Source: Hemileia vastatrix
Taxonomy: Eukaryota; Basidiomycota; Pucciniomycetes; Pucciniales; Zaghouaniaceae
NCBI GenBank assembly: GCA_030280995.1
Contig: JASXTE010000005.1
Span: forward strand, 20,788,501-20,852,500
Direction: 5' to 3'
Length of the DNA stretch: 64,000 nucleotides
The translations under genes and the position numbers were made by a program. Below the pieces are notes generated by a model, which saw only the letters and a list, made by a program, of their open reading frames with translations, did no database searches and had not been told where the DNA came from. Numbering within the stretch: position 1 is the first letter of the stretch; each line of letters begins with the position of its first letter. This document shows positions 21,055-63,232 of the stretch, piece by piece.

Positions 21055-22150
21055 TATGGTAAGGTAAACTCTTACAGTCGCCTTGCTGTAAGCAGAATCC
21101 GGAGGAGATATGTGGATTTAGTGGAAAACCCCGTCCTTCCAACAAAAAAAATAACAAAATGGGAATTCTAAATCACAAAGCTACCCAGTCTACTTGGATC
21201 TGATTGATAAAAATAATATTATGAAACTCTAAAATATTTAACGCTTATTGAGATTTAAAGAAAGTGGCTGTTGAGAAAGAAATACTGATAACAACAATTA
21301 AGGTGTACCAGAGAAAGATCTGAAAAGATTGACTTTTATGTTTTTATAATAATTTGAATTTTTATGAGACAGCAATAATCAAGTCCCAGTGATGAAGACC
21401 TTTCTAAAGATACCCTGTATGAAGTGTGATTTAAATTGTTGAGTAGTATTTCTAAAATGTTATATATAAAATAAAAAGTTATAAGGGTATTACAATTTTA
21501 TTTAATTTGTTGAGTAATAAAAAATGAGACTGTGGTAGTTAAAGATTAAGCTGTATGATGTATCCCCCCCCCTCAATTTCGAGTCTGAGAGACTCTTAAG
21601 TATTCCTAGTCACGTGCCTAAGTTTTCCCCTCCAGAGCTCACCCAGAGTCAATCCGGAGCCCATACGGACTCCGTCCGGACTTCCGGACTCAATTAGAAC
21701 CTTTAAAACTATAATAAAAAATCTAGAAAAATTACACATGATAGAGCCACTTCCCATTTACATTCCAAACTAATTTTCGTAGTCTGCGCAGCTCTAATTA
21801 CCCCGTGAAATTTCATCAAAGTTAAGTAATTTCTGAAAACGTAAATATTTCTATAAATCTTTAAAATTCATTTAAAAATATAAGAAAAATAGTAAAAATT
21901 CTGGAAAAATTTCCCAAGGTTCTTGAATGACTTGACTTGATACTTATAAACTTTTCAAACCGTAAAAATAAGTTTTCTCCGTAAAATAAAATTGATTTCT
22001 TGTAGGCATTTGCTTTTAACCAAATTTCTTTATATTTAAAACTCAAATAAATTTAAAAAAACCCTTTTATAAAATAATAACGCCAATCTTGCACGCCGTA
22101 ATAACTCCATTTACGTACTTTGGTACCATACTAAACTTTAGGCTACCACA
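21055..22150 (-). repeat. 3' LTR of family B copy 1
   Basis: 1096 bp, reading in element sense from TGTGGTAGCC to CCTTACCATA. It differs from the 5' LTR (1127 bp) by scattered substitutions and by a roughly 31-bp deletion in a run of CGGAGTC-type repeats (about 21655-21690). This indicates a moderate age, clearly older than the nested chromovirus. Confidence 0.93.
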
Positions 22151-23548: not shown

Positions 23549-24018
23549 ACCAGTTTAGAGTCTTAGTGGACAGTGATAAATTAAAAGATTGAATTGAGTT
23601 ATCCAAACAAGATTGACATTCCAGTTTAAAGTCTTGGTGGACCAAACATATAATCAATTGCCAGTTTATGGTCTTGGTGGACCAAAGATCGTTTAGGTGC
23701 ATAAATAACTTAATAAATTCCTAAATAAGGCCTAGGCTTGACCAAAGATTGAATAAATTTGATAATCCAGTTTAATGTCATAGTGGAACAAACATTTGAT
23801 TGACAAGTAATCCAGTATAAGGCCATAGTGGATTAATGAATGTTGAATTATCCTGCAGATATTAATTTTCCAGTTTAAAGTCATAGTGGACTAAACAATG
23901 AATGAACTACCAGTTTAAAGTCATGGTGGACCAAACATTTGATCGATAAGAAATCCAGTTTAAGGTCATGGTGGACCCAACAGCTTGATAACAGTCCAGT
24001 TTGAGGTCTTGGTGGACC
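23549..24018 (-). repeat. Array of nine hairpin-tail motifs, family B copy 1
   Basis: On the plus strand these read CCAGTTTA-N-(paired 4)-N6-(paired 4). Units start near 23549, 23621, 23661, 23767, 23812, 23869, 23910, 23954 and 23996. In element sense each is NNUC-N6-GANN-N-UAAACUGG, here mostly GGUC/GACC, AGUC/GACU or GGUC/GACU stems with a CACCAW or CACTAW loop. Spacing varies from 40 to 106 nt, and the spacers look unrelated to each other. The array lies between the two antisense genes. Confidence 0.85.
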
Positions 24019-25127: not shown

Positions 25128-25934
25128 TGGTGTTCTTCCTGGTACGTAGCTTTCTTGAATAATATTTGAAAAATAATAATATAAACATCTAAACTACCTA
25201 AAACTAAAATACCTTTTATTTTAATTTTAATTTTTTTTTTAATTTTTAATTTTTATTTTTATTTTTTATTTTAAAAGATGCCCCCCGGCCATTTGATGAG
25301 CCGTACCCTCGACATCATACCCACATCCAAGTGCAACTTGATGTGGTTACACAATTTTGAGAAATTGAAAAGAAAAGAAAATAAATGAAAGTTTTTAGAA
25401 GATAATTTTTATAATGATGATCACTGGGTGGGCTCCCTCCAATTTATAAAAATGATTAGAGACCACCAGTGAGCATCACCTTTACAATAATTCATAATTT
25501 ATATTAAAGAAAAGAAATCACAATCTAACATAAAAAAAAATAAAAACAAAAATAAAATAAAATAAATCTTTAATCCGGCGTTGAGAGCGGTGTCTCTTGA
25601 TTTGTTCCAGTTTATAGTCTTAGTGGACTTCCTATAATTAAAAGACAAAGCCAGGATTCAACTAGAAACAGGGAAAATTTTGAAAACAAACATTATGGGG
25701 TAATTGTGTATAGAGCAGCCAGCTCATCAATTACCCCCACACTTGCCAATATCAAATTAAGAAGGTTCCCCTGTGAACACTTCTTCCAATAAATTTTTAA
25801 AATTTTCCAACACTATCTTCACCCATATTTTAAGAATTTTAAATTTCGAAAATTTCAAAGAAGATTTTCTTGCATTTTGTTAAGTTTCATCAAAGTTTCG
25901 TCGCGCATAGGCAGTGTAACAACAGTAAAGTATT
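25128..25934 (-). other. Family B region downstream of pol (copy 1)
   Basis: Contains a T-rich low-complexity block (25210-25275), a segment conserved in copy 2 with GATGCCCCCCGGCC (25278-25291) and CATCAAGTTGCACTTGGATGT in complement, and one hairpin-tail motif at 25607-25627. No sense-strand ORF. The Gypsy genomic RNA would carry it as 3' non-coding sequence. Confidence 0.55.
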
Positions 25935-26509
25935 TTAATAAAAAGAAGATAGTTTATCCTCGTTGCGGAGGTCCATAAGATTTTTATAAACATCATAGTT
26001 TATCCTCATTGCAGAGGAATCCATAAAATTCCGTAGATATAATAGTTTATCCTCATTGCGGAGGTAGACTTCGGCACTCCTGGTGCCTCTAGGATAGAAC
26101 CGTTTCACTTGATCTGCTGCTACCCTCTTCTTCAATACTACTCCATCCAACTCTTCTAGCACATATGAACCTCCAGAAACTTGCTCCTTAACTTTATATG
26201 GTCCATTCCACCTATCTGCAAACATTTTCCCCCATTGACTCTCTAGACTTCTATTATACACCAAGACCATATCTCCTGGGTTCAAAGGTTTCCTTAATCG
26301 ATGTGCCAACCGCTCATCCCAATATCTAACTGATTGATTTCGGATCTTCATCATCTGCAAATATGCCTTTTTTAAATATTCTTCTTTCTTTTCTAGCTGC
26401 ATCATTCTTACACACAATAATTCATCAGTAGTTTTGAACGTGTCCCAGTCAACTCAAAGATATGATTCAGCTTCTAAATCAACCAGTAAAACTGCTTTCT
26501 GTCCAGAAA
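25935..26509 (-). pseudogene. Integrase C-terminus of family B copy 1 (cut off by chromovirus)
   Basis: This encodes the end of the integrase. The stretch beginning RMMQLEKKEEYL is followed by the GPY/F-type module (MVLVYNRSLESQWGK, then DRWNGPYKV) that helps integrase multimerise and contact target DNA. It matches copy 2 at about 60700-61165 residue by residue apart from a few changes and one extra stop (TGA where copy 2 has GGA) just upstream of the Met at 26415-26417. The tail has three in-frame hairpin-tail motifs (25951, 25997, 26045), each coding LRNEDKL-like or related peptides, whereas copy 2 stops after the first. Sequence is continuous with 36237 when the nested element and one AGAAA are removed. 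Confidence 0.88.
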
Positions 26510-34731: not shown

Positions 34732-36231
34732 TGTCAGGCTAGGGTCAAGTACAAGGACGTGATCTAGCTTGAATAGTCAGTTATCTAGAAGATGTTAATG
34801 GTCCTATATGAATACTGTAGTTTTAATCCACTAAGTTATCAAATATAATCAAATATAAAGGCCTCAGTAATATAATTCTCACTATTCTTATATATGGCTT
34901 ACAATCTTTGTAGTTGGTAGAAAAATAGATTATTTAATTCAGATACTATTCAAAAGTCTTATAAAAGTACTAATTGATATGTATTGTAATTTATTTGGTT
35001 ATATTGGTTGAATTGTAATGATAAAGAATGTAGAAATACAATCCAAAAACCTCCTCCTTTTATACACACTGAGTTCCCCAATGATTCCCTTGATGTACCA
35101 CCCAATACACAGTTAATCACGCCTCTAAACAACTAATAGACATTCCCATCAACAATCCCAGTGATCCTTGACATAATTAGAAGAGTAACAACCGCCAAAA
35201 TCCTGAAATAACAAGGGAAATCCATCAAAATTAAAGAAAAAGACAAAAAGAGAGTATATGCGTATAAAACAATAATATTAAGGACTAAAGGAGACTTTTT
35301 AAGGTTAATAATAGCTTAATAATAAGGGGGATTTACTATAGAAATAATGGGGCTAATCCTGACATTATACTACGTGAAATTCCCATTCAAAAATAACCAA
35401 AATTGACTGAGAAACCACCCAAAAACTTAAAAAAGAGCGTGAGATGTGGGGTAACTACATGCAGTTCTTGGCAGGCGCTTGCACGGGTAAATCCTTGACT
35501 AAAATTAGGCGAGTTTAAGCGTGGTGATGAAATAAAGTGCCAAGAGTGAGGTTATTAATGAAATTAGTGCATATAAACAGGGTCAATGCATTATTAATTA
35601 AGCTAGGACACTAAATAAGCGCCTGTCGCCTATTTTAGTGTGTTTCCCCACAGTGGGCGTAGAATGTGGGGTAATTATAGTGTGAAAAAGCTAACTTTGC
35701 TAAAAATGAAGCTATTCACACGGGAAAAAAGCAGGCAGTATGTGGCCAGTACACAGAAGCCATTTCTGGCATAAAAAACACCAAATTTGAAAAGTGTTAT
35801 TTTTATGCATTTAAATAGCCAAATCAATAGTTCTAAATGAGCCCAATTGATCTGTCAAAGCGCAATTTTGATATTCTCAATTTTATAGCGCATATAGTCA
35901 ACTTTTAAGTGAAATAAAGCGCATTTCTTGTTTTTTGCATAAAACAATGAATATAACAGCTTTAAGTGTACTTAAAAATTATGCAGCCTTATACTTAAGG
36001 TTCTTAAGATTACCCTAACATATTCCAACTTAATATTAAGTACATAAGACCTATAAAAGGTGGATATATGCGTGTATATAAGGTGTTATAATGGCATTTT
36101 TTGTGTATTATCATAATTTTACTTATGTATACTATTTGTGTACTCTTATTTATTATTCCCATGTATAGTTCATGTGTTTAACATAACTTATAAGTACTTT
36201 TTACTCAGTCCTGGAGATATACAGGCTGACA
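34732..36231 (-). repeat. 5' LTR of the nested chromovirus
   Basis: 1500 bp and, as far as direct reading shows, identical to 26510-28009. Since the LTRs are copied from one template at insertion, lack of differences marks a very recent event. Followed by the AGAAA target duplication at 36232-36236. Confidence 0.96.
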
Positions 36232-37182: not shown

Positions 37183-39990
37183 TCAACGTTTTTCTTCTGA
37201 ACCTTTGGATCCTTTGTAAACCGTATTCAAAAATACCTCTTTCTCTTTATCCACCCTTTTATTTAAATTATCTAATTCTCCAACATATAAACCATTCCTT
37301 AACTTACTACTATCCCACACTACCAATCCATCCTCCTCTACATACACCACATCTTCTTCTACCTCCTTTCTACCAAATTTATCTACACCTTTTCTAACAC
37401 CTTTATTAACATATAAACTATTTTCCAGTTTATCCTCTTGGTGGAGGTCATCATCTCTATAATCTAAACACAATAATCCTGCCAGTTTAACCTCATGGGG
37501 GAGGTATGGAAAGTCTTCAGCTCCTTTAGTGCTGGCTTTGATAATAGGTATATCTTCATCGAACTCTTCTGAGTCTGAATCTTCTTCAGTGGGTGGTCTC
37601 CTTGATAAACCATCTGGCATAGTAAAAGTTTTGCCAGGCTTATGAACTAAATCGAACAAAAAATGTTGAATAAAAGCTACCCATCTCGTCATGGGTGCGT
37701 TTGGTAAACTTGGGGAATTAATCATCTGGATTAACGATTTCGCATCCACTTGCAACTCAAAATGTTGCCCCCACAAAATATGCTGAAGTTTCTTCAGTAT
37801 TTTTGCCACACCACATAATTCCAATTTTGGTTGAGAATATCTTGATTCGACCTCAGTAAATACTACAGATTCATACCTAACTGGCCTGATGTAACCAGCT
37901 TTATCCATCTGAGACAAAACCGCCCCAGCTGCAATCTGACTTGAATCAACTGCTAAATAAATTCTGCCAGCATTTTTTCCATAATCCAACTTGTGCAAGA
38001 CTAAATCCTTCCCTACAACCTTCTTCAACTTCACAAACGCCTTCTCACACTCTTCATCCCACTCCCAGTCTGCATCCTTTCTCTTTAACCGTCTCAATGG
38101 AGCTGCCAATGAAGAAAAGTCCTTGATAAACATTCTAACATATACGCAAACGCCCAAAAACCCTCTAACTTTGGTTGTATTCTTGGGTCTTGGCCAGGAC
38201 TGAATTTTGTTAACTTTCTTCTTGGACATAATCCTACCCTCTCTACATACCACATGGCCTAATATTTCTAAGGCTGGCACACAACATGAAAATTTTGAAC
38301 CTGAAATAGTTAAACCAGCCTCTTCAATTTGAAACAAGATTCTTTCTAAAGTAATTGAAAACTCCCAAATGAATTTGCGTATCCCGGGATTCTCTTCCAA
38401 CGCCTGGTTATCATATTTGGTTGTTGGTCCCTTAATTCCTCCATCATCTATAAAGATTCCAGCATATTGTGGAATTTCGTCTTGAAGGATCCAAGCCATC
38501 TGAGCTTGATAAACTGCAACCAAATTTGTTGCTCCTTGAGGTAATCTTCTTAACTGTAAACGTCCTAGTGGCGTATCAAATGTAGTTAGAGGCCTTGAGT
38601 CTGGATGTAACTCTCTCTCATCATATCCACCCATAATATCTCCCAAACTATAACACACTCTCACTGCAAACGCTTCAACAAACTCCTCAGCACTAGGCGG
38701 TATCCCAGCATCCTTTATTGTAACCCTATTTAATTCCCTAAGATCATGAACAACTCTAAGCTTTCCATTCGGTTTCTTGATACAAAATACCGGACTAGAA
38801 TAACTTGATGTTGATTGCTCATACAGTCCAGTGCATTTCCGTTCTCTGACAACTTCAATATAGGCTTCTTTTAATGCAGCCGGAATAGGAATCGGTTTCT
38901 GCTGCCACGGTTCATGACATACCACAGGAATCTTGTAAGGCTCCCCATAGGAATGCTTCAACACACCCCTCTCCTCTTCTACAAAAGCAATGGCCTTCTC
39001 TCGCTTGACCATCACATCCAACAACAACTTCTTCTCTTCTCCAGAAAACCAACCATCAGGTCCAAAATTAACAACACCCAGTCTCTCAAAAGTGATTCTT
39101 GACGTCTCAGAAACTTCAGGCGGATTCTTTACCAAGGGACTTTCATAAGGATCTCTTGATAACCTTGGTCTTCTCAAAGGTGGATTTAATTCAGCAGGTA
39201 GCAGTTCATTAATAGGTTGAACTTTATTTTCTACCTTCTTATATTTGGCTGCGTCCACATCTAAATAAGCTTGAGGTAAATCATTTACTTTTGTTTCGCC
39301 ATTAAAAATTTCATCAAATGAATCTTCTTCATCGTCAGAATCGGAATAAGAAAAATTAGAAAAATATTTTATTTCATTTTTAAATTTTACCCTTTTCTCC
39401 TTTCCCTCATCTAATTTATAAACAGATTTTCCAACACCTTTGCTTCCCCTATCCAACAGTAAATCACCCGTAAAGAAGGTTTGAAGTTTAACCTCTTGCC
39501 GGAGGACCAGAATTGAATTTTCACAAAAATTATTTTTTTGTGTTTTAATTATACTGAGATTTTTTATTGGATTTTGATAAGATTTTTGCAGTTTAACCTC
39601 TTGCTGGAGGTCTGGAATAACATTTTCGCATAAATTATTTTTTAGTTTTTTTATTATAATAAGATTTTTAATTGGATTTTGATAAGATATTTGCAGTTTA
39701 CCCTCTTGCTGGAGGTCATAAAACATACCTTTCCAATTTTTATCCAACCTAATTTGGCCCATTTTGCCATTTTCACCATTTTTAAATTTAATAGAAAAGC
39801 AGGGTAAATCCAATAAACATATAGAAAAGTCCATAACTTATTTGCACTCCAAGGTAATATTAACAGAAAATAATTGAGAATCCACTTAAATTATTTCCAA
39901 GTGAGCTGACCTATTGCAATCCGGGATCTCATCCTGAGGAGAGATTACAACATTAGAGTGATCAGCCCCAGCTACCCCAAAAAATGAGGG
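37183..39990 (-). pseudogene. Family B copy 1 pol: linker repeats, reverse transcriptase, RNase H
   Basis: Reached from gag by a -1 shift near 39980. The frame has a TAA at about 39835-39837 just before Met 39834, then 883 open codons. Residues counted from that Met: three repeats of LQQEGKLQ/LRQEVKLQ separated by about 35 residues (39-120), each overlying a hairpin-tail motif; an acidic patch (163-175); reverse transcriptase with LGDIMGGYD (motif A, about 398-404) and GIFIDDGG (460-467), an FxDD variant of the usual YxDD; RNase H with AVDSS (628-632), KLELCG and VDAKS; and a tail with two more hairpin motifs (37425, 37482). The final TGA at 37183 replaces CGA of copy 2. Makes DNA from the element RNA. 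Confidence 0.9.
39972..39990 (-). promoter_or_regulatory. Probable -1 ribosomal frameshift site between gag-PR and pol
   Basis: In element sense the gag frame ends CAT TTT TTG GGG TAG. T TTT TTG (39978-39984) fits the X XXY YYZ slippery pattern of retroviral -1 frameshifting, two codons before the stop. The pol frame is open in exactly the -1 register and reads SFFGVAGAD through the site. Copy 2 preserves the bases (56906-56912). A downstream stimulatory structure was not established. Confidence 0.7.
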
Positions 39991-42581
39991 CATCCATCCC
40001 TTTCCAACAAACATAATTCACCAGAAGCTGTCCGTTTTATACGCCGCTTCTTTGTGCAAACACAACACTGGCACAGAGTAGTAATCCCTGGCCGTGTTTC
40101 CCAACCTTCATCTCCAGGAGGCGCTAACCGCATATGTAACCTCCGCATATCTTCACCAGTGATCTCCAAACTAATCCCCATGCCAGCTTGATACCCTATC
40201 CTGGCCTCAAAATCCATTAAAAAAGGACCACCAAGAACAGTTTTGACTGCTCCTCTGGCCACATAAAAGTGAACCTTACCAACAGATCCACCAATGCCTA
40301 ACCTGACATGCTCAGCTGTACCCATCAGCTCTGTTGCATGCCCTCCAATGCCTCTGAGGTTTCCCCCAGTTCCACTTTTAATTGGCAAGCCTATACTCGT
40401 TGCTTGCTCCAATGAAATAAAATTAATTTGAGACCCTGAATCTACCAAGGCCTTTACTTCTTTACCATTAAGAGTTACCACCAGGTAACCCAGGGGAGCG
40501 GAAAAATGCGTATCTACATCTTCCCCAAACTTTTCAGCATTTTCACAAATATATTCCACCTCTCCAGTGGAAACTCGACACCTCGTCAAATGCTTCTTTT
40601 GCTTTTCAGCAAGCACCGGACTAATCGTAAATAACTCCCCCAAAGATAAGGGAATATGCAGTTGATTCACCCTATTCAAAAATTTGTCCATCGCATTAGC
40701 TTGACCAGAAACTACTGGCCGCTCATACTGGACCTTTGATTTAACAACCTTGGCCCTGGGTACCTCTTGAGGTCCAACTGAGCCATCTTCACCCCCCATT
40801 ATAACATCTTCACTTTCTATAACCCTAACTCCATCACCAGCTTCTTGCACTAATCCTGATCCATCGCTAGTCCTTCTTACACCCTCCATTGGGATGGGAC
40901 CGCTAAAACTTGGTCTGGGTAGAGATGCCAACGGTACGTCCTCCTCAGAATCCAAATCATCCTCTGGCATAGGCTCACCATTTAAATCAAACTTGCCATA
41001 ACTAGGGGGCCCCATATCAGCAATCCCCTTCTGCATTTTATATAATTCGTCCTTAGAGTAAGGGTTCAATTTGTTGGAGGCAGTTTGAGAACTAGAATTC
41101 TTGTCCTTAGAGTAAGGGTTCACTTTTTTATTCACCTTGCCAGGATTAGCCCTCAATTGGCTCTGAATGCTACTCTTTGCCTTAGTAGCAGCTGCTCTTC
41201 TAGCAGCATTAACATCGTATTCGCCAGCCATACAGCTACCCTCCACCTGGGCAACCGTTGCCAGCTCTAAACCTCCAAAAGAAGTAGAAAATGTGGCTTT
41301 ACTGACCTCTTTCTCCTTGCCCTTGTCAGCTTTACCACCATTACCATTACCATTTTTGCCACCCTTGGCATTAACATCTTCATCCGTCACCTCTTCAAAT
41401 CTGGCTCTCCTTTCAGCCGTTAAAATTCTTCTGACCAAATCAGAAGGAGACTGTCCATCACTGGGCTTGATGAACAAACCATCAGGAAATTTATAAACTT
41501 TACCATCAAATAAAACTCGCCCAGCATCCATATCCTTATCAAGAGCAAAACAAACTGTTGCTCTGTGCCCCCTCCTATTACAATAGGAGCACACCTTTGG
41601 CTCATCGTAGCCACCTCTATAACTACTACCACCATTCCCACCATTTCTCCCATTTCCTGGGAAGCGGTTACCGTTATTATTGCCATTATAATTTCGACGT
41701 TCATAACCTCTGGACTGATAAGAAGTCGACATCGACAAAGAAGCGATTGGGGCCTTGTTAGCCTTCTGTGTCTCTTGAACAAATATTTTTAACTGTTTAG
41801 TTAAATCGGCCAGGTGATCGACCATCTTATTATCTACATTGCCCTCAACTTTAGCGGCAGGTAATCCCATTTGTGCCTTCTTGGCCTCCTGGGCTTTGAC
41901 CATAATATCGTTGTTTTTGGCCAAAACTTCGCTAACCTTGCTAACATATTGAGTGCAGGACTCTTGATATTTGTCCAATGCTAACAACTTGAGATGGGCC
42001 TGAATGTTGTCCTTGATAACCTCCAGAGCCGGCAGTTTCTGCTCACCATTAGGCAGTTCCTTCATCAAATCTTTTCTTGAAAGATCCTTCAAGACGTCCA
42101 TACGAATATCCCTGCTGCATGCTGTCCAAAACAAATCTTTTTCTTGATTCTCATGCACTAACTCATCCACCAATATAAGATATTCCACCACTTCATCAAA
42201 CTGAACACAGAGCTTTTTGAAGTCAGACATAGAAGAAACTCCACCTTTTGCTTGCCAGTCTCCAACAATTTTATTGAGGTCCATCATAGTAAACCTAACA
42301 CCCCATCTATCAACCATAGCTTTAGAAAGCTTAACCCAATCCTTGTCTTTAAATGCCTGCATAGCAATAACCTCTTTTTCCTCCTCCCTATCAGCAATAA
42401 AAAATCTAACTTGCTTCACCATATCCACATGAGAAGCACCATCAACAGCAGCAGCAGCTTCATACCTGCTAATGAACCATTTAACCTCCTCCCCATCAAA
42501 CTTTGGGCCATCCCAAGAAACAATTCTAACTGAGGGAGTAAGAGGGTTAGAAGATCCAGAAGCAACAGCAGAAGAAGACAT
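39972..42581 (-). CDS. Family B copy 1 Gag-protease
   Basis: 869 codons, no internal stops. Residues 15-200 form a helical Gag region (SVRIVSWDGPKFDGEE, YEAAAAVDGA). A Gly/Asn/Arg-rich box precedes a CCHC zinc knuckle CSYCNRRGHRATVC at about 331-344, which binds RNA. A long linker with PYSKD repeats follows. An aspartic protease domain at about 700-800 has VDSGSQINF (active-site D715 in a DSG triad) and LGGPFLMDF. The C-terminus is Cys/Arg-rich (CQCCVCTKKRR). The start ATG 42579-42581 lies about 160 bp past the primer-binding site and is matched by MSSTSG in copy 2. The stop overlaps a slippery site for entry into pol. Copy 2 lacks the knuckle and protease. Confidence 0.92.
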   Translation of the reverse strand: MSSSAVASGSSNPLTPSVRIVSWDGPKFDGEEVKWFISRYEAAAAVDGASHVDMVKQVRFFIADREEEKEVIAMQAFKDKDWVKLSKAMVDRWGVRFTMMDLNKIVGDWQAKGGVSSMSDFKKLCVQFDEVVEYLILVDELVHENQEKDLFWTACSRDIRMDVLKDLSRKDLMKELPNGEQKLPALEVIKDNIQAHLKLLALDKYQESCTQYVSKVSEVLAKNNDIMVKAQEAKKAQMGLPAAKVEGNVDNKMVDHLADLTKQLKIFVQETQKANKAPIASLSMSTSYQSRGYERRNYNGNNNGNRFPGNGRNGGNGGSSYRGGYDEPKVCSYCNRRGHRATVCFALDKDMDAGRVLFDGKVYKFPDGLFIKPSDGQSPSDLVRRILTAERRARFEEVTDEDVNAKGGKNGNGNGGKADKGKEKEVSKATFSTSFGGLELATVAQVEGSCMAGEYDVNAARRAAATKAKSSIQSQLRANPGKVNKKVNPYSKDKNSSSQTASNKLNPYSKDELYKMQKGIADMGPPSYGKFDLNGEPMPEDDLDSEEDVPLASLPRPSFSGPIPMEGVRRTSDGSGLVQEAGDGVRVIESEDVIMGGEDGSVGPQEVPRAKVVKSKVQYERPVVSGQANAMDKFLNRVNQLHIPLSLGELFTISPVLAEKQKKHLTRCRVSTGEVEYICENAEKFGEDVDTHFSAPLGYLVVTLNGKEVKALVDSGSQINFISLEQATSIGLPIKSGTGGNLRGIGGHATELMGTAEHVRLGIGGSVGKVHFYVARGAVKTVLGGPFLMDFEARIGYQAGMGISLEITGEDMRRLHMRLAPPGDEGWETRPGITTLCQCCVCTKKRRIKRTASGELCLLERDGCPHFLG

Positions 42582-42738
42582 CCCAATAAGTAATGAAAAG
42601 CGTTAACAATTGATAAAATAAAAAGCCTCTTGCAGGCCAATAACAAAAATCCAATTAGAGTTCCAGAAAATAAGCCTCTTGCAGGCTAAGAATGTTCTTG
42701 ATCCAAGTAAGTCTTTAACGAAAGCTAGAGAAATCGAA
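42582..42738 (-). other. Family B copy 1 leader
   Basis: Short leader between primer-binding site and gag start. It contains two spaced copies of AGCCTGCAAGAGGCTTAT-like sequence (element sense), also duplicated in copy 2 (55495-55560), each an inverted pair AGCCT/AGGCT around CTGCAAG. Possible packaging or dimerisation hairpins. Confidence 0.5.
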
Positions 42739-42757: not shown

Positions 42758-43884
42758 TATGGTAAGGTAAACTCTTACAGTCGCCTTGCTGTAAGCAGAA
42801 TCCGGAGGAGATATGTGGATTTAGTGGAAAACCCCGTCCTTCCTACAAAAAAAATAACAAAATGGGAATTCTAAATCACTAAGCTACCCAGTCTACTTGG
42901 ATCTGATTGATAAAAATAATATTATGAAACTCTAAAATATTTAACGCTTATTGAGATTTAAAGAAAGTGGCTGTTGAGAAAGAAATACTGATAACAACAA
43001 TTAAGGTGTACCAGAGAAAGATCTGAAAATATTGACTTTTATGTTTTTATAATAATTTGAATTTTTATGAGACAGCAATAATCAAGTCCCAGTGATGAAG
43101 ACCTTTTTAAAGATACCCTGTATGAATTGTGATTTAAATTGTTGAGTAGTATTTCTAAAATGTTATATATAAAATAAAAAGTTATAAGGGTATTACAATT
43201 TTATTTAATTTGTTGAGTAATAAAAAATGAGACCGTGGTAGTTAAAGATTAAGCTGTATGATTTATCCCCCCCTCAATTTCGAGTCTGAGAGACTCTTAA
43301 GTATTCCTAGTCACGTGCCTAAGTTTTCCCCTCCAGAGCTCACCCAGAGTCAATCCGGAGCCCGTACGGAGTCCGTACAGAGTCGAAGCGGAGTCCAAAC
43401 GGAGTCTGTCCGGACTTCCCGACTCAATTAGAACCTTTAAAACTATAATAAAACATCTAGAAAAATTACACATGATAGAGCTACTTCCCCTTTACATACC
43501 AAACTAATTTTCGTAGTCTGCGCAGCTCTAATTACCCCGTGAAAATTCATCAAAGTTAAGTAATTTCTGAAAACGTAAATATTTCTATAAATCTTTAAAA
43601 TTCATTTAAAAATATAAGAAAAATAGTAAAAATTCTGGAAAAATTTCCCAAGGTTCTTGAATGACTCGACTTGATACTTATAAACTTTTCAGGCCGTAAA
43701 AATAAGTTTTCTTCATAAAATAAAATTGATTTCGTGTAGGAATTTGCTTTTAACCAAATTTCTTTATATTTAAAACTCAAATAAATTTAATAAAACCCTT
43801 TTATAAAATAATAACTCCAATCTTGCATGCCGTAATAACTCCATTTACGTACTTAGGTGCCATAATAAACTTTAGGCTACCACA
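42758..43884 (-). repeat. 5' LTR of family B copy 1
   Basis: 1127 bp, from TGTGGTAGCC to CCTTACCATA in element sense. It contains an extra roughly 31 bp of imperfect GTACGGAGTC / CGGAGTC repeats near 43360-43410 compared with the 3' LTR. The flanking ACGT at 43885 is the target duplication. Confidence 0.93.
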
Positions 43885-54317: not shown

Positions 54318-55423
54318 TGTGGTAGCCTAAAGTTTAGTACGGCACCTAAATATGTAAATGGAGTTATTACGGTGTGCAAGATTGGAGTTATTATTTTTTA
54401 TTTTTTATATATAAAAGGGTTTTATTTAATTTATTTGAGTTTTAAATATGAAGAAATTGGTCACGAGCAAACGCCTACACAAAAACAATTTATTTTACGG
54501 AGAAAACTTATTTTTACGGTCTGAAAAATTTATAAGTATCAATTCAAGTCGCTCAAGAACCTTGGGAAATTTTCCCAGAATTTTTACTATTTTTCTTATA
54601 TTTTTAAATGAATTTTAAAGTTTTATAGAAATATTTACGTTTTCAAAAATTACTTAACTTTGATGAGTTTTCACGGGGTAATTAGAGCTGCGCAGACTAC
54701 GAAAATTAGTTTGGTATGTAAAGGGGAAGTAGCTCTATTATGTGTAATTTTTCTAGATTTTTTATTATAGTTTTAAGGTTCTAATTGAGTCCGGAAGTCC
54801 GGACGGACTCCGTACGGACTCCGTACGGGCTCCGGATTCACTCTGGAAGAGCTCTGGAGGGGAAAACTTAGGCACATGACTAGGAATACTTAAGCGCTTC
54901 TCAAACTCAAAATTGAGAGGGGGGACACATCATACAGCTTAATCATTGACCACCACGGTCTCATTTTTTATTACTCAACAAATTAAAATAAATTGTAATA
55001 CCCTTATAACTTTATATTTTATATATAACATTTTAGAAATACTACTCAACAATTTAAATCACACTTCATACAGGGTATCTTTAGAAAGGTCTTCGTCGCT
55101 GGGACTTGATTATTGCTGTCTCATAAAAACTTAAATTATTATAAAAACATAAAAGTCAATCTTTTCAGATCTTTCACTGGTACACCTTAATTGTTGTTAT
55201 CAGTTTTTCTTTCTCAACAGCCACTTTCTTTAAATCTCAATAAGCGTTAATTATTTTAGAGTTTCATTATTTTTATTAATCAGATCCACATAGATTGGTT
55301 AGCTTAGTGATTTAGAACACCTACTTTGATATTTTATTGGAAGGACGGGGTTTTCGGCTAAATCCACATATCTCCTCCGGATTCTGCTTAAAGCAAGGCG
55401 ACTGTAAAAAATACCTTACCATA
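54318..55423 (+). repeat. 5' LTR of family B copy 2
   Basis: 1106 bp, TGTGGTAGCC to CCTTACCATA. The CGGAGTC-type repeat block (about 54795-54840) again differs in number from both copy 1 LTRs. The left flank GATGG would be the target duplication; its partner lies outside the window. Confidence 0.93.
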
Positions 55424-55424
55424 G

Positions 55425-55598
55425 TTGGCGCCCAACATGGGGTTCGATTTCTCTAGCTTTCTTTAAAGACTTACTTGGATCAAGAACGTTATTAGCCTGC
55501 AAGAGGCTTATTCTCTGCAACTCTAATTGGATTTTTGTTATTGGCCTGCAAGAGGCTTGTTATTTTAACGGTTGTTAACGCTTTTCTTATGTTTTGGG
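55425..55598 (+). promoter_or_regulatory. Primer-binding site and leader, family B copy 2
   Basis: TTGGCGCCCAACATGGGG at 55425-55442. The leader then contains two AGCCTGCAAGAGGCTT inverted pairs (about 55496 and 55543) that could form short hairpins; copy 1 has the same pair. Gag most likely starts at 55599 (MSSTSG), not at the upstream in-frame ATG 55572, by analogy with copy 1. Confidence 0.65.
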
Positions 55599-56804
55599 AT
55601 GTCTTCTACTAGTGGAACTGCTGTGTTGGCTGCTGGTGTACCTGTTAGGCCATCAGTAAGGATTGTATCTTGGGTTGGGCCCAAGTTTTCTGGAGATGAT
55701 TTAGAAGGATTTTTACATAGGTATGAAACTGCAGCTGCAATTGATGGTGCTTTACCTTTGGATATGGTGAAGCAGATTAGGTTCTTTATTTTGGACAGAG
55801 AGGTGGAAAAGGAGGTTATTTCTATGGATGGTTATAAAGATCAAGATTGGAGAAAGCTCAAGATGGAAATGGAAAAAAGGTGGCCAAAAGTTTATTCATT
55901 GGAGGATCTAAAGGATATAGCTAGGAAATGGGAATCAAAAGGTGGTGTAACATCTCTGCATCAGTATCATCAGTTTATGGTTGAATTTCAGGTGGTTCTG
56001 GATTATTTGTTGGAGTATGAAATTTTATTTCATGATAATGCATCAAAGTATGTTTTTTGGGATGCTATGGGGGAAAAGGTTAAGAAAGATGTTTTGATGG
56101 TGCTTATTAATGGGAATTTAATGAAGGATCTCCCAGATGGAGAAACTAGGATTCCTGGTATGGAGGTGCTAAAGAAGGCTATTTTGGAACATCTGGATAC
56201 TCATAACTCTGTTGATTTGGACTCTGGAGAAGACACTGAGGTTGCTCAAGAGATAGAAGAGGATGGTGTAAAAGAACTAGTTACTGATGAAATTCCGGAT
56301 TCAGCCATTCCTGAAGATTTTGTCCAGCCTGAAGATATTATTTTTGTTGACTCTTCTGTTTGGAAAGAAGAGGTTTCTGAAGATGAAGATATTATTGTCA
56401 CTGATGAAGAAAATTTGGATGTTCGGGATAATTTTGTTTTGGATAATTTGGAATTTGATTTAGAGGAATATTTACCTCAGGTTTTGTCTTCAAAAGCGGA
56501 GACTGTCTGCAATTCAGATGTGGATATGGTTTATGAATCTGGTATATGTATGGTGGATTTGTTTCAATCTCAGGAAGAGATTTTTATGGAGGATATAATT
56601 TTCCCTGCACTAAAAAAGAGTGTAGTGGCATTTGATAATAGAGTGCATAAATTGGATGCACTCATGTTTTGGAAAAGGGCTGTTTATTTTTTATGTCCAA
56701 TGGTAGGACAAATTATGGGGGTTTATTTTTGGGTTTTATGGAATCGGTGGATAAGCCCTTGGGGCAAAATTATGGATTATCTCCAGGGGATATCAAGAAT
56801 ATAA
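55599..56804 (+). CDS. Family B copy 2 short Gag with acidic and hydrophobic C-terminus
   Basis: An open frame of 401 codons. The first about 200 residues match copy 1 Gag in order (SVRIVSWVGPKFSGDD, YETAAAIDGAL, WESKGGVTSL, MKDLPDGETRIPGMEVL). After that the two differ completely. Copy 2 has a strongly acidic region of about 130 residues (SGEDTEVAQEIEEDG, SEDEDIIVTDEENLD) and a C-terminus rich in Trp, Phe, Tyr and Val (FWKRAVYFLCPMVGQIMGVY) that could be a membrane or oligomerisation segment. There is no CCHC knuckle and no DSG/DTG protease. The frame is intact although pol is broken. It may be a non-autonomous Gag variant needing protease from another copy; function unproven. Confidence 0.8.
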   Translation: MSSTSGTAVLAAGVPVRPSVRIVSWVGPKFSGDDLEGFLHRYETAAAIDGALPLDMVKQIRFFILDREVEKEVISMDGYKDQDWRKLKMEMEKRWPKVYSLEDLKDIARKWESKGGVTSLHQYHQFMVEFQVVLDYLLEYEILFHDNASKYVFWDAMGEKVKKDVLMVLINGNLMKDLPDGETRIPGMEVLKKAILEHLDTHNSVDLDSGEDTEVAQEIEEDGVKELVTDEIPDSAIPEDFVQPEDIIFVDSSVWKEEVSEDEDIIVTDEENLDVRDNFVLDNLEFDLEEYLPQVLSSKAETVCNSDVDMVYESGICMVDLFQSQEEIFMEDIIFPALKKSVVAFDNRVHKLDALMFWKRAVYFLCPMVGQIMGVYFWVLWNRWISPWGKIMDYLQGISRI

Positions 56805-56860
56805 TTCCTCCGAAATGAGGATAAACTACCTAAACTCGGCTGAAATTTTTTTTTATCGTT

Positions 56861-59800
56861 ATGTCTTCAATTTATTCAGGATTCAAATTATTATGGATGC
56901 CCTCATTTTTTGGGGTAGCAGGGGCTGATCACTCTAATGTTGTAATCTCTCCTCAGGATGAGATCCCGGATTGCAATAGGTCAGCTCACTTGGAGATAAT
57001 TCAAGTGGATTCTCAATTATTTTCTGTTAATATTACTTTGGAGTGCAAATACGTTATGGACTTTTCTATATGTTTATTGGATTTACCCTGCTTTTCTATT
57101 AAATTTAAAAATGGTGAAAAAGGCAAAATGGGCCAAATTAGGTTGGATAAAAATTGGAAGGGTATGTTTTCGGGCCTCCAGCAAGAGGTTAAACTGCAAT
57201 TATCTCCTTCTATTTTGGACCTCCAGCAAGAGGGTAAACTGCAAATATCACATCAAAATCCGATAAAAAATCTTGGTATAATTAAAACACAAAAAAATAA
57301 TTTATGTGAAAATGTTATTTAGGACCTCCAGCAAGAGGGTAAACTGCGAAAATCTTATCAAAATCCAATAAAAAATCTCAGTATAATTAAAACACAAAAA
57401 AATAATTTTTGTGAAAATTTAATTCCGGTTCTCCAGCAAGAGGTTAAACTGTCAACTTTCTTTACGGGTGATTTACTGTTGGATAAGGGAAGCAAAGGTG
57501 TTGGAAAATCTGTTTATAAATTAGACGAGGGAAAGGAGAAAAGGGTAAAATTTAAAAATGAAATAAAATATTTTTCTAATTTTTCTTATTCCGATTCTGA
57601 CGATGAAGAAGATTCATTTGATGAAAGTTTTAATGGCGATACAAAAGTAAATGATTTACCTCAAGCTTATTTAGATGTGGACGCAGTTAAATATAAGAAA
57701 GTAGCAAATAAAGTTCGACCTATTAATGAACCGCTACCTGCTGAATTAAATCCACCTTTGAGAAGACCAAGGTTATCAAGAGATCCTTATGAAAGTCCCT
57801 TGGTAAAGAATCCGCCTGAATTTTCTGAGACGTCAAGAATCACTTTTGAGAGACTGGGTGTTGTTAATTTTGGACCTGATGGTTGGTTGTCTGGAGAAGA
57901 GAAGAAGTTGTTGTTGGATGTGATGGTCAAGCGAGAGAAGGCCATTGCTTTTGTAGAAGAGGAGAGGGGTGTGTTGAAGCATTCCTATGGGGAGCCTTAC
58001 AAGATTCCTGTGGTATGTCATGAACCGTGGCAGCAGGAACCGATTCCTATTCCGGCTGCATTGAAAGAAGCTTATATCGAAGTTGTCAGAGAACGGATAC
58101 GCACTGGACTTTATGAGCAATCAACGTCAAGTTATTCTAGTCCGGTATTTTGTATCAAGAAACCAAATGGCAAGCTTAGAGTTGTTCATGATCTTAGGGA
58201 ATTAAATAGGTTTACAATAAAGGATGCTGGAATACCACCTAGTTCTGAGGAGTTTGTTGAAGCGTTTGCGGGGAGAGTGTGTTATGGTTTGGGAGATATT
58301 ATGGGTGGATATGATGAGAGAGAGTTACATCCGGACTCAAGGCCTCTCACTACATTCGATACGCCACTAGGACGTTTACAGTTAACAAGATTACCTCAAG
58401 GAGCAACAAATTCGGTTGCAGTTTATCAAGCTCAGATGGCTTGGATCCTTCAAGACGAAATTCCACAATATGCTGGAATCTTTATAGATGATGGAGGAAT
58501 TAAGGGACCAACAACTGACTATGATAACCAGGTGTTGGAAGAGAATCCCGGGATACGCAAATTCATTTGGGAGTTTGCAATTATTTTAGAAAGAATCTTG
58601 TTTCGAATTGAAGAGGCTGGTTTAACTATTTCAGGTTCAAAATTTTCATGTTGTGTGCCAGCCTTAGAAATATTAGGCCATGTGGTATGTAGAGAGGGTA
58701 GGATTATGTCCAAGAAGAAAGTTAACAAAATTCAGTCCTGGACAAGACCCAAGAATACGACCAAAGTTAGAGGGTTTTTAGGCGTTTGCGTATATGTTAG
58801 AATGTTTATCAAGGACTTTTCTTCATTGGCAGCTCCATTGAGACGGTTAACGAGAAAGGATGCAGACTGGGAGTGGGATGAAGAGTGTGAGAAGGCGTTT
58901 GTGAAGTTGAAGGAGGTTGTAGGGAAGGATTTAGTCCTGCACAAGTTAGATTATGGAAAAGATGCTGGCAGAATTTATTTAGCAGTTGATTCAAGTCAGG
59001 TACAGCTGGGGCGGTTTTGTCTCAGATGGATAAAGCTGGTTACATCAGGCCAGTTAGGTATGAATCTGTAGTATTTACTGAGGTCGAATCAAGATATTCT
59101 CAACCAAAATTGGAATTATGTGGTGTGGCAAAAATACTGAAGAAACTTCAGCATATTTTGTGGGGGCAACATTTTGAGTTGCAAGTGGATGCGAAATCGT
59201 TAATCCAGATGATTAATTCCCCAAGTCTACCGAACGCACCCATGACGAGTTGGGTAGCTTTTATTCAACATTTTTTGTTTGATTTAGTTCATAAGCCTGG
59301 CAAGACTTTTACTATGCCGGATGGTTTATCAAGGAGACCACCCACTGAAGAAGATTCAGACTCAGAAGAGTTCGATGAAGATATACCTATTATCAAAGCC
59401 AGCACTAAAGGAGCTGAAGACTTTCCATACCTCCCCCATGAGGTTAAACTGGCAGGACTATTGTGTTTAGATTATGATGATGATGACCTCCACCAAGAGG
59501 ATAAACTGGAAAATAGTTTATATGTTAATAAAGGTGTTGGAAAAGGTGTAGATAAATTCGGCAGAGAGGAGGTAGAAGAAGATGTGGTGTATTTAGAGGA
59601 AGATGGATTGGTAGTGTGGGATAGTAGTAATTTAAGGAATGGTGTATATGTTGGAGAATTAGAGAATTTAAATAAAAAGGTGGATAAAGAGAAAGAGGTA
59701 TTTTCAAATACGGTTTTCGAAGGATCCAAAGGTTCAGAAGAAAAACGACGACATAGCCCGATTAAAAATTTATTTAGGGGTCAACGATTATTGGCTCATT

Positions 59801-61167
59801 CATGTGCAGGTGATATTGGTGATAGAGAAGTCCCTATTGATGTTATATTAATCGATTTTCAATATGAAGTCTGGGGTCAGACTGGTTTTTATTTTTTGTT
59901 AGTCAAATATTTGTTGACTTTAGAGAGGCCAGAAGATTGTGAAGACGATGAATGGGTGGCTATCAAGAGGAAGTCATCTACGTTTTACCTATCTGGTCGA
60001 CGTTTAATGAGGAGGAGATATCCAAATCCTCAAGTAGTTGTAACTCAAGAGAAGGGGCAAGAATTAGTTTTGAAATCACTGCATGAAGATCTTGGGCATA
60101 GAGGCGTTGGAGAAACGTTTAGAAGAATTTCTGATTGATTTTGGTGGCCTGGAATGAAGATGGCTGTTAAACAGTGGGTTCAGTCATGTGAAGAATGTCA
60201 AAGACGAAGTTATTTAAGGCCAAAAGAACCTGGACGCGTGACCGGTGAATATACGCTCTTTGGAAGAGTTAGTTTAGATGCCGTTCATATAAAAGAGGGA
60301 CGGTATAAATATTTAATTGTGGCCAGAGATGATTTATCTGGTTGGGTAGAGGCAGCGCCTCTTATTAATTTAACTGCCAAAAATGTGGCAGAATTTTTTT
60401 TAAATAATTGGGTATATAGGTATGGGGTGATGAAGTTTGTAACCGTAGATGGAGGTCCTGAATTTGGGATAGAGTTTAAAGAGGCCGTATTGAAAGTTGG
60501 ATCAAAGGTTAGGGTAGCAACCCCATATTATCCGGAAGCTGAAGGCATGGTGGAAAGAGGGCATCAAGTTATCAAGGATGCTTTAGTTAAAATGTGTGGG
60601 ACAAGTGCCGAAAAGTGGAGGCACTATTTACCTTTAGTTTTATTTGCTGATCGAATCACTGCCAAAAGGACTACCGGATTTTCACCTTATGAACTTGTTT
60701 TTGGACAGAAAGCAGTTTTACCGGTTGATTTAGAAGCTGAATCATGTCTTGGAGTTGACTGGGACACGGTCAAAACTACTGAAGAATTATTGTGTGCAAG
60801 AATGATGCAGCTAGAAAAGAAAGAAGAATATTTAGAAAAGGCATATTCGCGGATGATGAAGATCCGAAATCAATCAGTCAGATATTGGGATGAGCGGTTG
60901 GCACATCAATTAAGGAAACCTTTGAACCCAGGTGATATGGTCCTGGTGTATAATAGGAGTTTGGAAAGCCAGTGGGGAAAGATGTTTGCAGATAGGTGGA
61001 ATGGACCGTATAAAATCAGGGAGCAAGTTTCTGGCGGTTCATATGTGCTAGAAGAGTTGGATGGAGTAGTAATAAAGAAGAGGGTAGCGGCCGATCAAGT
61101 GAAACGGTTCTATCCTAGAGGCACCAGGAGTGCCGAAGTCGAACTCCGAAATGAGGATAAACTATGA
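56861..61167 (+). pseudogene. Family B copy 2 pol: RT, RNase H, integrase (three lesions)
   Basis: A pol ATG at 56861 (MSSIYSGFKLL) follows the gag stop by 56 bp, with a hairpin-tail motif between. The frame has four LQQEVKLQ-type repeats over hairpin motifs (57175-57450), RT at about 58000-58750 with GIFIDDGG, RNase H from about 58970, integrase HHCC (HEDLGHRG, CEECQ), and core residues in LDAVH, VDGGPEF and AEGMVERGH. The GPY/F-type end has DRWNGPYKI, and the stop is at 61165-61167. Lesions relative to copy 1: TAG at 57320-57322, a one-base deletion near 58997 in RNase H (AVDSSQ), and TGA at 60136-60138. No chromodomain. Domain order is standard Metaviridae. Confidence 0.9.
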
Positions 61168-62299
61168 TATCAACAAAATTTTATAAATACCTCCGCAACG
61201 AGGATAAACTATCTTTTTTTTATCAAATAATTTACTATCGTTACACTGCATATGGGCAACGAAACTGTGATGAAACATAACGAAATACGAGAAAACCTTC
61301 ATTGAAAATTTTCAAAATTTAAAATTCTTAAAATATGGGTGAAGATAGTGTTGGAAAAATTTTAAAATTTATTGGAAGAAGTGTTCACAGGGGAACCTTC
61401 TTAATTAAATATTGGCAAGTGTGGGGGTAATTGATGGGCTGGCTGCTCTATACACAATTACCCCATAATGTTCGTTTCCAAAATTTTCCCTGTTTCTAGT
61501 TGAATCCTGGCTTTGTCTTTTAATTTTAGGAAGTCCACTAAGACTATAAACTGGAACGAATCAAGAGACACCGCTCTCAATGCCGGATTCAAGATTTTTT
61601 ATTATGTTTTTGATTTTTTATGTTAGATTGTGATTTCTTTTCTTTAATATATATTATGAATTAATGTAAAGGTGATGCTCACTAGTGGTCTCTAATCATT
61701 TTTATAAATTGGAGGGAGCCCACCCAGTGATCATCATTATAAAAATTATCTTCTAAAAACTTTCATTTATTTTCTTTTCTTTTCAATTACTCAAAATTGT
61801 GTAACCACATCAAGTTGCACTTGGATGTGGGTATGATGTCGGGGGTACGGCTCATCAAATGGCCGGGGGGCATCTTTTAAATTTTAAATTTTGATAATTC
61901 TTTTTACCTTTTTTTATCTTTCTTTTCACGTTCATTTATCTTTCTTTAAAATTAAATTTTAACTTTTATTTCAAACCTATCTTTTCTAAAATCTTTTATT
62001 AAAATAAAACCGGAAAAAAAAAAAAAAAACAAATACAAATTAAAATTTAAAAAAAAAATAATAATAAAAATAAAAATAAAATAAAAATAAAATAAATAAT
62101 AAAAAAAAATAAATAAATAAAAAATAAAATAATAAAAATAAAATAAAAAAATAAAAAAATTAATTAAATAAATAAAAAATTATTTTATTTCTCAGTTTTA
62201 TTTTTTTAGTTTTCATTCTTTTTAGTTTATTCATATAGTTTAGACAGGAAACAGGGTCTAGGGGAACTCAATACCTATGGGATTTTACTTCAAGACATC
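61168..62299 (+). other. Family B copy 2 post-pol non-coding region
   Basis: Conserved with copy 1 to about 61880, including hairpin-tail motifs at 61190 and 61532 and the ATGGCCGGGGGGCATC segment (61859-61874). 61880-62220 is A/T low-complexity, mostly AATAAA-type runs. About 62230 onward leads into the motif array. No sense or antisense gene; antisense gene 2 of copy 1 has no counterpart here. Confidence 0.6.
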
Positions 62300-62303
62300 T
62301 GTT

Positions 62304-63232
62304 AGTCCTCCAAGACTTTAAACTGGCTACTGTTCAAGACTTTCCTTAAGGGTTTTATACAAATTTCGGAGCTGTTAGTCCTCCAAGACTTTAAACTGGC
62401 TATTTTTCAAGACTTTCATTAAGGATAATTTTCTTTATCTTGACATCTGTTAGTCCTCCAAGACTTTAAACTGGCTACTGTTCAAGACTTTCCTTAAGGG
62501 TTTTATACAAATTTTGGAGCTGTTAGTCCTCCAAGACTTTAAACTGGCTACTGTTCAAGACTTTCCTTAAGGGTTTTATACAAATTTTGGAGCTGTTAGT
62601 CCTCCAAGACTTTAAACTGGCTAAATTTCAAGACTGTCATTAAAGATTTTATATTGGAGCTGTTAGTCCTTCAAGACTTTAAACTAAATTTCAAGGATGT
62701 TCAAGATTTTATGGATATTCTTGGAGACGTATTTTTTAAATTTTTTTTTATCAATCAAATGTTAGGTCCACCAAGACCTTAAACTGGACTATTATCAAGT
62801 GTTGGGTCCACCATGACCTTAAACTGGATTTCTTATCTTTTATTTATTTGGTCCACCATGACTTTAAACTGGTAGTTCATTCATTGTTTAGTCCACTATG
62901 ACTTTAAACTGGAAAATTAATATCTGCAGGATAATTCAACATTCATTGGACCACTATGGCCTTATACTGGATTACTTGTCGATCAATTGTTTGGTCCACT
63001 ATGACATTAAACTGGATTATCAAATTTATTCAATCTTTGGTCAAGCCTAGGCCTTACTTAGGAATATATCAAGATATTTATGCACTTAAACGATCTTTGG
63101 TCCACCAAGACCATAAACTGGCAATCGATTATATGTTTGGTCTACCAAGACTTTAAATTGGAATGTCAATCTTGTTTGGATAACTCAATTCAATCTTTTA
63201 ATTTATCACTGTACACTAAGACTCTAAACTGG
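62304..63232 (+). repeat. Array of 15 hairpin-tail motifs, family B copy 2
   Basis: Two blocks. Block 1 (starts 62304, 62377, 62452, 62525, 62598, 62665) has stem AGTC/GACT and loop CTCCAA, in near-regular units of 67-75 bp that also share TTCAAGACTTTC and TTAAGGGTTTTATACAAATTT. Block 2 (62765, 62805, 62850, 62890, 62948, 62993, 63099, 63139, 63210) has mostly GGTC/GACC or GGTC/GACT stems with CACCAW or CACTAW loops and unlike spacers. Tail TAAACTGG nearly always. Block 2 corresponds to the copy 1 array; block 1 is only in copy 2. It looks like a repeat-spacer array but is part of the retroelement. Confidence 0.88.

Follow-up and report, generated by a model that had tools for sequence, protein, structure and literature searches.

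Why would a retrotransposon carry one short, foldable sequence many times over, and always in the same orientation? The question is raised by 64,000 nucleotides (nt) of Hemileia vastatrix DNA (assembly GCA_030280995.1, contig JASXTE010000005.1, forward-strand positions 20,788,501 to 20,852,500; hereafter the window, whose own coordinates are used throughout), in which one Ty3/Gypsy family with long terminal repeats (LTRs) is present as two copies, copy 1 on the minus strand and copy 2 on the plus strand. A preliminary description, made from the sequence alone, had reported a dispersed 23-nt hairpin-plus-tail motif in this element. Here we propose, as a reading that we consider reasonably probable, that the motif forms a small, compact pseudoknot in RNA, of the kind called coremin (exonuclease-resistant RNA class C, xrRNA-C), with each copy a predicted stall site for the exonuclease Xrn1. 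Coremin is an RNA that stops this 5'-to-3' exonuclease and is reported from plant, fungal and other RNA viruses, among them beet necrotic yellow vein virus (BNYVV) RNA3 and its relatives (PMC10520033); it stalls Xrn1 both in yeast and in vitro (PMC5869530). Judged from its sequence, the coremin-like array in the Ty3/Gypsy element is probably an exonuclease roadblock, and perhaps a roadblock to ribosomes as well.

Inventory, orientation and placement of the motif

Read in element sense, the motif consists of a stem, S1 (positions 1-4 with 11-14), a six-base loop, a linker base, the bases UAAAC, and a tail that can fold back on the loop. Two classes can be told apart, type I with G at loop position 6 and A at tail position 22, and type II with G22 and C or U at position 8; among the 43 copies there are 6 of type I (at the gag and pol ends), 35 of type II and 2 mixed ones (62665, 39483). 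The preliminary inventory holds up: all 25 starts that it had listed for copy 2 are present, its total of 43 instances across both element copies is reproduced (25 in copy 2, 18 in copy 1), and the coordinates confirm that copies lie inside pol, at the gag-pol junction and in the 3' non-coding region. The exact core TC-N6-GA-N3-TAAACTGG occurs 24 times in the window, where shuffles lead one to expect 0.01, and for TAAACTGG alone the figures are 25 and 3.3. The covariance model that had been suggested as a check, built from the 43 copies, recovers these 43, with the next place in the window at E = 1.4, and in the same search every one of the 43 has the orientation of its element (25 on the plus strand, 18 on the minus strand). 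Among 20 representatives of the 25 copies in copy 2, five near-identical tandem copies having been dropped, information content reaches 1.7-2.0 bits at UCC, A9, GA and UAAACU and is at most 0.9 bits in each of 50 flanking columns. A scan of the window with Rfam gave nothing at the gathering threshold. The copies are distributed as follows, each found by sequence and covariance model unless another source is given.

56807..56829, plus: one copy, type I, loop CGAAAU, tail UAC, 2 nt past the gag stop codon
57175..57452, plus: four copies, type II, in the pol frame at the gag-pol junction
59430..59509, plus: two copies, type II (59430, 59487), in the enlarged stretch between RNase H and integrase
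61143..61212, plus: two copies, type I (61143, 61190), at the end of pol
61532..61554, plus: one copy, type II, in the 3' non-coding region
62304..62687, plus: array of six copies with a unit of about 73 nt (62304, 62377, 62452, 62525, 62598 type II; 62665 mixed), found by self-comparison and covariance model
62765..63232, plus: array of nine copies, type II, spaced 40-106 nt (62765, 62805, 62850, 62890, 62948, 62993, 63099, 63139, 63210)
39483..39715, minus: copy 1, three copies (39693, 39588 type II; 39483 mixed)
37425..37504, minus: copy 1, two copies, type II (37482, 37425)
25949..26064, minus: copy 1, three copies, type I, at the end of pol (26042, 25995, 25949)
25607..25629, minus: copy 1, one copy, type II
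23550..24018, minus: copy 1, array of nine copies, type II (23996, 23955, 23910, 23870, 23812, 23767, 23661, 23621, 23550)

The copy at 61143 shares one base, at its 3' edge, with the pol stop codon, and the copy at 61190 lies just behind it. The 73-nt array at 62304-62687 has no counterpart in copy 1.

Such placement invites a reading in terms of translation, in which the knots would slow scanning or elongating ribosomes at the junctions and stops of open reading frames (ORFs) and in this way set Gag-to-Pol output, reinitiation or folding pauses. Several of the occupied sites would suit it, namely the position just past the gag stop, the gag-pol junction with its in-frame copies, the interval from RNase H to integrase and the pol stop, and viral coremin is reported to block scanning ribosomes about five-fold in vitro, with the tested Xrn1-resistant hexaloops performing equally well or better (PMC10520033). 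However, 16 of the 25 motifs of copy 2 (61532 onward) are found well past the pol stop, in a region that ribosomes would not be expected to reach. We consider translation control unlikely as the explanation of the motif; it is compatible with an exonuclease block as a second effect beside it.

Pairing and conservation

The stem proposed in the preliminary description is present in most copies, its four pairs being complete in 36 of the 43 when G-U pairs are counted. The fixed tail UAAACUGG that had been described along with it has to be given up: UAAACU is kept in 39 of the 43 and is followed by two variable bases (GG in 29 copies, GC in 5, AU in 5, and GU, UC, AC and AA in one each). What had been missed is a second helix, in which loop positions 7, 8 and 9 pair with tail positions 23, 22 and 21. 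All three pairs can form in 35 of the 43 copies, and in 35 of the 35 that are type II, with the letter sets CCA/UGG, CUA/UGG and, at the gag-pol junction, GCA/UGC (57175, 57220, 57325) and GCA/UGU (57430). The mixed copy at 39483 differs from its counterpart 57430 in having U rather than G at tail base 22, by which pair 8-22 is lost, and G, the type I letter, rather than A at loop base 6. Elsewhere in the loop, C is nearly always first and A nearly always fifth.

Pairing was compared with 500 column shuffles of the 28 distinct rows, a control that overstates the signal since the rows are related. Across both helices, 89.3% of cells are paired against 73.1% in the shuffles; for the covariation score the two values are 0.382 and 0.162. 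None of the 500 shuffles is as high in either measure, and the best slid register reaches 0.304. Taken separately, the stem is paired in 91.1% against 71.6% with a covariation score of 0.444 against 0.159, and the loop-tail helix in 86.9% against 75.0% with 0.300 against 0.161, again with none of 500 shuffles as high; the loop-tail helix slid by +1 scores 0.296 on its two remaining pairs. Several of the departures in pairing are G-U pairs. Single copies fold with mildly low energy (mean z -1.04 for the 28 distinct copies against mononucleotide shuffles).

Much of the arrangement could also arise at the level of DNA, as a partly palindromic protein-binding site or a tandemly duplicated short satellite comparable to those in the 3' regions of plant Ty3/Gypsy elements. 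The arrays have 73-nt units and 40-45-nt spacings, one of them is absent from copy 1, the stricter covariation counts (given below) are not above shuffles, and satellites derived from retrotransposons have been published (PMC7004042, PMC3648361). The plant repeats share with the arrays described here tandem units within an LTR element that differ between copies; as treated in the parts of those papers drawn on here, they are DNA repeats, whereas in our element a structured RNA motif is kept while the spacers change, and copies stand within ORFs as well. Against a feature of DNA speak the single orientation of all 43 copies, although tandem duplication would preserve orientation within a cluster, the replacement of Watson-Crick by G-U pairs, the likeness to a viral RNA motif, and the loop-tail pairing, which crosses the stem and would be meaningless in duplex DNA. 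We therefore regard this explanation as rather improbable.

The preliminary description had taken paired changes in the stem to indicate selection on RNA structure. That view is supported, though not proved, by those paired changes with their G-U intermediates, by the loop-tail helix, by the sense-only orientation and by frozen synonymous sites in pol. Differences between copy 1 and copy 2 amount to 13 in 390 aligned bases of the motif and 58 in 947 bases of the flanks (p = 0.044), which is the expected direction and a weak effect. In the 14 in-frame coding copies the codons CTC, GAG and AAA are invariant, and the variable residues are Q/H/P/R, Q/H/N and V/G/D. Because these three codons are fixed while other residues change, it seems to be the RNA rather than the peptide that is kept. 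The stretch between RNase H and integrase, with its two motif copies, has 247 residues against 105-122 in relatives (the 18 of 112 reverse transcriptase (RT)-RNase H relatives in which both edges are recognisable).

The opposite possibility, that a conserved peptide LxxExKL is what matters and the RNA pattern is a by-product of codon use, can point to the reading frame shared by the 14 copies within ORFs. Nevertheless, residues vary where the RNA is free to do so, the copy at 25995 is read in a different frame, 16 of the 25 motifs of copy 2 lie well behind pol, and the peptide is no commoner among the 112 relatives than in shuffled proteins (5 matches against 7.65). On these grounds we consider it very improbable. 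Look-alike peptides in two relatives (P0048, P0003) were dropped as evidence on the strength of the same comparison.

Comparison with coremin and with viral and bacterial sequences

Published work on coremin, which as of 2023 had no solved structure, provides a detailed standard for the motif (PMC10520033). Coremins with hexaloops exist and follow the loop rule YGNNAD, with CGCAAU and CGAAAU among the loops that are resistant in the BNYVV context; mutation of the spacer C and U of the BNYVV coremin abolishes stalling; and coremins are also reported from mycoviruses, within repeats and spanning stop codons (PMC10520033). The likeness of our motif to this form is considerable. A first hairpin, hp1, of 4 base pairs (bp) is present in the 36 copies with a complete stem, 41 of the 43 loops begin with Y and have A-D at positions 5-6, and the 39 copies with the UAAACU spacer (6 type I, 31 type II and both mixed) include the C and U on which stalling depends in BNYVV. 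The loops CGAAAU (56807, 61143) and CGCAAU (26042) are published resistant loops, the G6 and A22 of type I are the letters of viral coremin, and there are repeated copies and one that spans a stop codon, the pol stop at 61143.

The differences lie mainly in type II, which makes up 35 of the 43 copies and has A, C or U in place of the loop G, UGG, UGC or UGU tails, and the 3-bp loop-tail helix. The UAC spacer end of the BNYVV type, a possible requirement, occurs in 1 of 43 copies (56807), the others ending in UGG (29), UGC (5), UAU (5), UGU (1), UUC (1) and UAA (1). The host also differs, being an LTR retrotransposon with 18-25 copies per element. We infer from the sequences that the 3-bp loop-tail helix of type II might substitute for the loop-G contact, and perhaps also for the second hairpin, hp2, which the published coremin needs, a 2-bp hp2 being enough given a stable tetraloop (PMC10520033). 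Placed in the BNYVV context together with the BNYVV tail, loops whose second base is A (CAGAAA, CAAGAA, CAAAGA) were reported not to stall Xrn1, and the same was reported of CGAAAC (PMC10520033); in our own reading, the failed A-loops sat opposite a tail unable to form the 8-22 pair.

A further reading, along the lines of the preliminary description, is that Gag, RT or another protein of the element binds the motif at its many sites, for packaging, compaction or processing. This would fit an element in which a single structured RNA motif recurs many times in sense orientation, and binding of the BNYVV coremin to the viral protein p14 has been reported (PMC13431473). It leaves the match to an exonuclease-stopping motif and the positions at stop codons unexplained, however, and copy 2 is the richer in motifs, yet neither a zinc knuckle nor a protease part could be seen in the gag ORF of that copy. 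Because the form is already described as the viral coremin Xrn1-resistant RNA, binding, packaging or processing is not the best fit, and we hold a protein-binding site to be an unlikely explanation. The statement that no Ty3/Gypsy signal of this form was known stands so far: among the open-licence papers listed, no natural xrRNA in a retrotransposon was found, while the form as such is known from viral coremin.

Other compact RNA folds offer further comparisons. Luteovirus frameshift signals and preQ1-I riboswitches are compact H-type pseudoknots with a short stem, a short loop-tail helix and an A-rich linker along the stem. The motif resembles them in these three respects and differs in that many of its copies lie outside ORFs and no upstream slippery site was noticed by eye; a frameshift signal was dropped as a candidate on both counts. 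We know of no sequence likeness between the motif and the xrRNAs of flaviviruses or of tombusviruses and poleroviruses. With those it shares the proposed function of a folded RNA that stops 5'-to-3' exonucleases, and their ring folds are larger (PMC12412911, PMC5760640).

Returning to the coremin reading, we find coremin-like motifs outside the element. The type I hexaloop pattern (xGTC-CGNNAD-GACx-N-TAAACTA) occurs in 101 stretches of viral contigs, mostly phage-like, while a control pattern in which GA is exchanged for AG gives 12, and the full 4-bp stem is present in 60 of 84 distinct contexts, where by our arithmetic about 14% would be expected at even base use. A stricter pattern, run without a control pattern, gave 21 stretches in prokaryote genomes, 15 of them Bacillota by record title; four others come from one Arthrospira record, one from Saccharibacteria and one from Paceibacterota, with none from Pseudomonadota. 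A model built from 45 viral-contig sequences, which had been chosen with a pattern in which the shared bases are already fixed, ranks 39 of the 43 window copies above all other places in the window (next E 0.92). Rfam families cover the motif in none of the 16 loci scanned at the gathering threshold.

The loop-tail rule was followed in viral contexts that had not been selected on the tail, pooled counts with tail-chosen loci being excluded as a test. Among the matches listed (at least 94 distinct contexts, at least 63 of them outer-paired), position 8 of the outer-paired contexts is C or U in 5 of the 5 that have G22 and in 3 of the 52 that have A22, and G6 is present in 47 of the 52 with A22. 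The outer-unpaired remainder of the matches listed also shows G22 with C or U at position 8 in 3 of 8, and for this reason the association counts as support of modest weight. The UGC pattern has the full stem in 9 of 20 distinct viral contexts, some of them palindromic by letter content. The UGG form of type II was rejected in viral contigs as chance, since the full stem was present in 3 of its 59 matches there; with a narrower UGG pattern it was present in 1 of 9 distinct contexts.

Some viral-contig motifs stand close to other RNA features. Occurrences that combine the type I letters with an outer pair number 132, and 28 of them have a T-loop-like TTCRA at most 32 nt upstream; in the 40 loci scanned a tRNA or tRNA-like gene ends 0-2 nt before the motif at L080:624-1025, L124:1947-2051, L151:4620-4824 and L239:12515-12619. 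At L080 and L151 the motif sits within tRNA arrays, and the copies there (L080:1003, L151:4802) lack the outermost stem pair. At L167:6108-6195 a type I motif lies just upstream of a GP20-b element of Rfam (RF03003).

Several results weigh against a coremin-type Xrn1 block. Seven of the 43 stems are incomplete. Changes on both sides of a pair and the number of pair types, the measures that the tool rates least prone to false alarm, are never above the shuffles for both helices, the stem or the loop-tail helix: across both helices 3 pairs are changed on both sides (3.8 on average in the shuffles, of which 495 in 500 are as high) and there are 11 further pair types (mean 10.4, 244 of 500 as high), and the 6 cells of the loop-tail helix changed on both sides are equalled by 50 of 500 shuffles. 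The YGNNAD rule is obeyed by only 5 of the 43 loops (type I 4 of 6, type II 0 of 35, mixed 1 of 2), the type II loops with A at the second place resemble the published non-stalling ones, and the type I copies 61190 and 25949 end their loop in C, like the failed CGAAAC. An hp2-like hairpin below -1 kcal/mol, starting at most 6 nt from motif base 22, was found in 4 of 43 flanks (39483, 25995, 63210, 23550) against 21% of 3000 random places, a 2-bp hp2 not having been looked for. The null result for the encoded peptide among the 112 relatives counts here too; a search with the N-terminal region 1-190, which carries motif copies, had no matches up to E = 10; and in a search for DNA relatives of pol, which in prokaryote genomes was aimed at contamination, 119 prokaryote-genome and 128 viral-contig stretches fitted a pattern and none of them encodes a relative. 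Finally, both element copies are broken, copy 2 by an in-frame stop at 57320 and frame breaks, copy 1 by a nested insertion. Since the YGNNAD rule is broken and hp2 is rare, the array is coremin-like and, by the strict test, not a filed member of coremin.

The host element and a possible role of the motif

The LTRs and the order protease-RT-RNase H-integrase, found by self-BLAST and Pfam, place the element in Ty3/Gypsy. Two LTRs, protease, RT, RNase H and integrase were all found in copy 1. In copy 2, which starts at its LTR and continues beyond the end of the window, one LTR, RT, RNase H and integrase were found, and no Pfam match to a protease domain.

42758..43884, minus: copy 1, 5' LTR (self-BLAST)
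21055..22150, minus: copy 1, 3' LTR, 94.4% alike to 42758-43884 (self-BLAST)
39972..42602, minus: copy 1, ORF for gag and aspartic protease (Asp_protease_2 and related Pfam models)
37183..39837, minus: copy 1, RT-RNase H ORF (RVT_1 and RT_RNaseH, Pfam)
54318..55423, plus: copy 2, 5' LTR, 89.8% to 21055-22150 (self-BLAST); the 3' LTR lies outside the window
55569..56804, plus: copy 2, gag-like ORF (no Pfam match)
57323..61167, plus: copy 2, pol with RT, RNase H and integrase in a broken reading frame (ORFs, Pfam)

On its LTR side, 54318-55858 in copy 2 is 86.5% identical to 43884-42328 in copy 1 (self-BLAST). The gag region diverges between the two copies although pol is 95% alike; the zinc-knuckle and protease parts not seen in the gag ORF of copy 2 (55569-56804) are both present in that of copy 1 (39972-42602). 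Copy 1 is split by a younger chromodomain Gypsy element (26507-36231), whose LTRs (26507-28009 and 34729-36231) are 99.9% identical and thus indicate a very recent insertion; no motif copies lie inside it. Two more LTR-like copies, at 4897-6385 and 10149-11650, are 85-91% alike to the LTRs of the nested element, and a 1.2-kb inverted self-match (8904-10148) adjoins them. Many of the 112 RT-RNase H relatives are unnamed metagenome proteins, and the closest named ones come from rust fungi (Puccinia, Austropuccinia), with up to 69% identity, together with a few at 69-70% identity that carry labels of bacterial metagenome-assembled genomes and are probably contamination. The GC content of the window is 33.6%, near the 33.8% given for Austropuccinia psidii (PMC8063080).

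From the sequence of the motif, its pairing potential, orientation and placement and its likeness to coremin, we infer a role in which Xrn1 would stall and 3' fragments of the element RNA would survive. Element RNA that had been decapped or cut by silencing would be digested from its 5' end by Xrn1 up to the next motif copy, where the enzyme would stall just upstream of the stem and leave stable 3' fragments in which pol or the non-coding arrays are kept. The copies at the gag stop, the gag-pol junction, the RNase H-integrase stretch and the end of pol would form a ladder of back-stops, and the in-frame ones would have to remain passable for elongating ribosomes, whose slowing is a possible second effect. 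From the 3' arrays a long-lived non-coding RNA might remain, which could in addition keep Xrn1 engaged; as BNYVV coremin RNA is reported to repress Xrn1 in vitro (PMC5869530), the retrotransposon arrays could be such a decoy. In yeast, assembly of Ty3 is associated with P-body proteins and Xrn1 is needed for full transposition (PMC4589538), which makes this a place where an Xrn1 block would pay.

The motifs in viral contigs may be natural blocks to bacterial RNase J. A flaviviral xrRNA stops RNase J in vitro, though it is said never to meet this enzyme naturally (PMC5760640), and the viral-contig copies, if real, would suggest that natural RNase J blocks exist in bacteria. We put forward only tentatively, as an idea that falls somewhat short of likely, the wider proposal that a retrotransposon RNA is armed with about 25 exonuclease-stopping pseudoknots, that these form a second class of coremin whose 3-bp loop-tail helix stands in for the loop-G contact and hp2, and that the same fold in phages of RNase J bacteria makes it a general anti-exonuclease module of selfish elements.

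The pattern of type I and type II copies offers a testable model for the coremin fold. Exonuclease-resistant RNAs are known as viral devices; if our reading is true, it would suggest that selfish elements of cells resist RNA decay in the same way, and it would bear on how Ty3-like elements assemble together with P-body proteins such as Xrn1 (PMC4589538).

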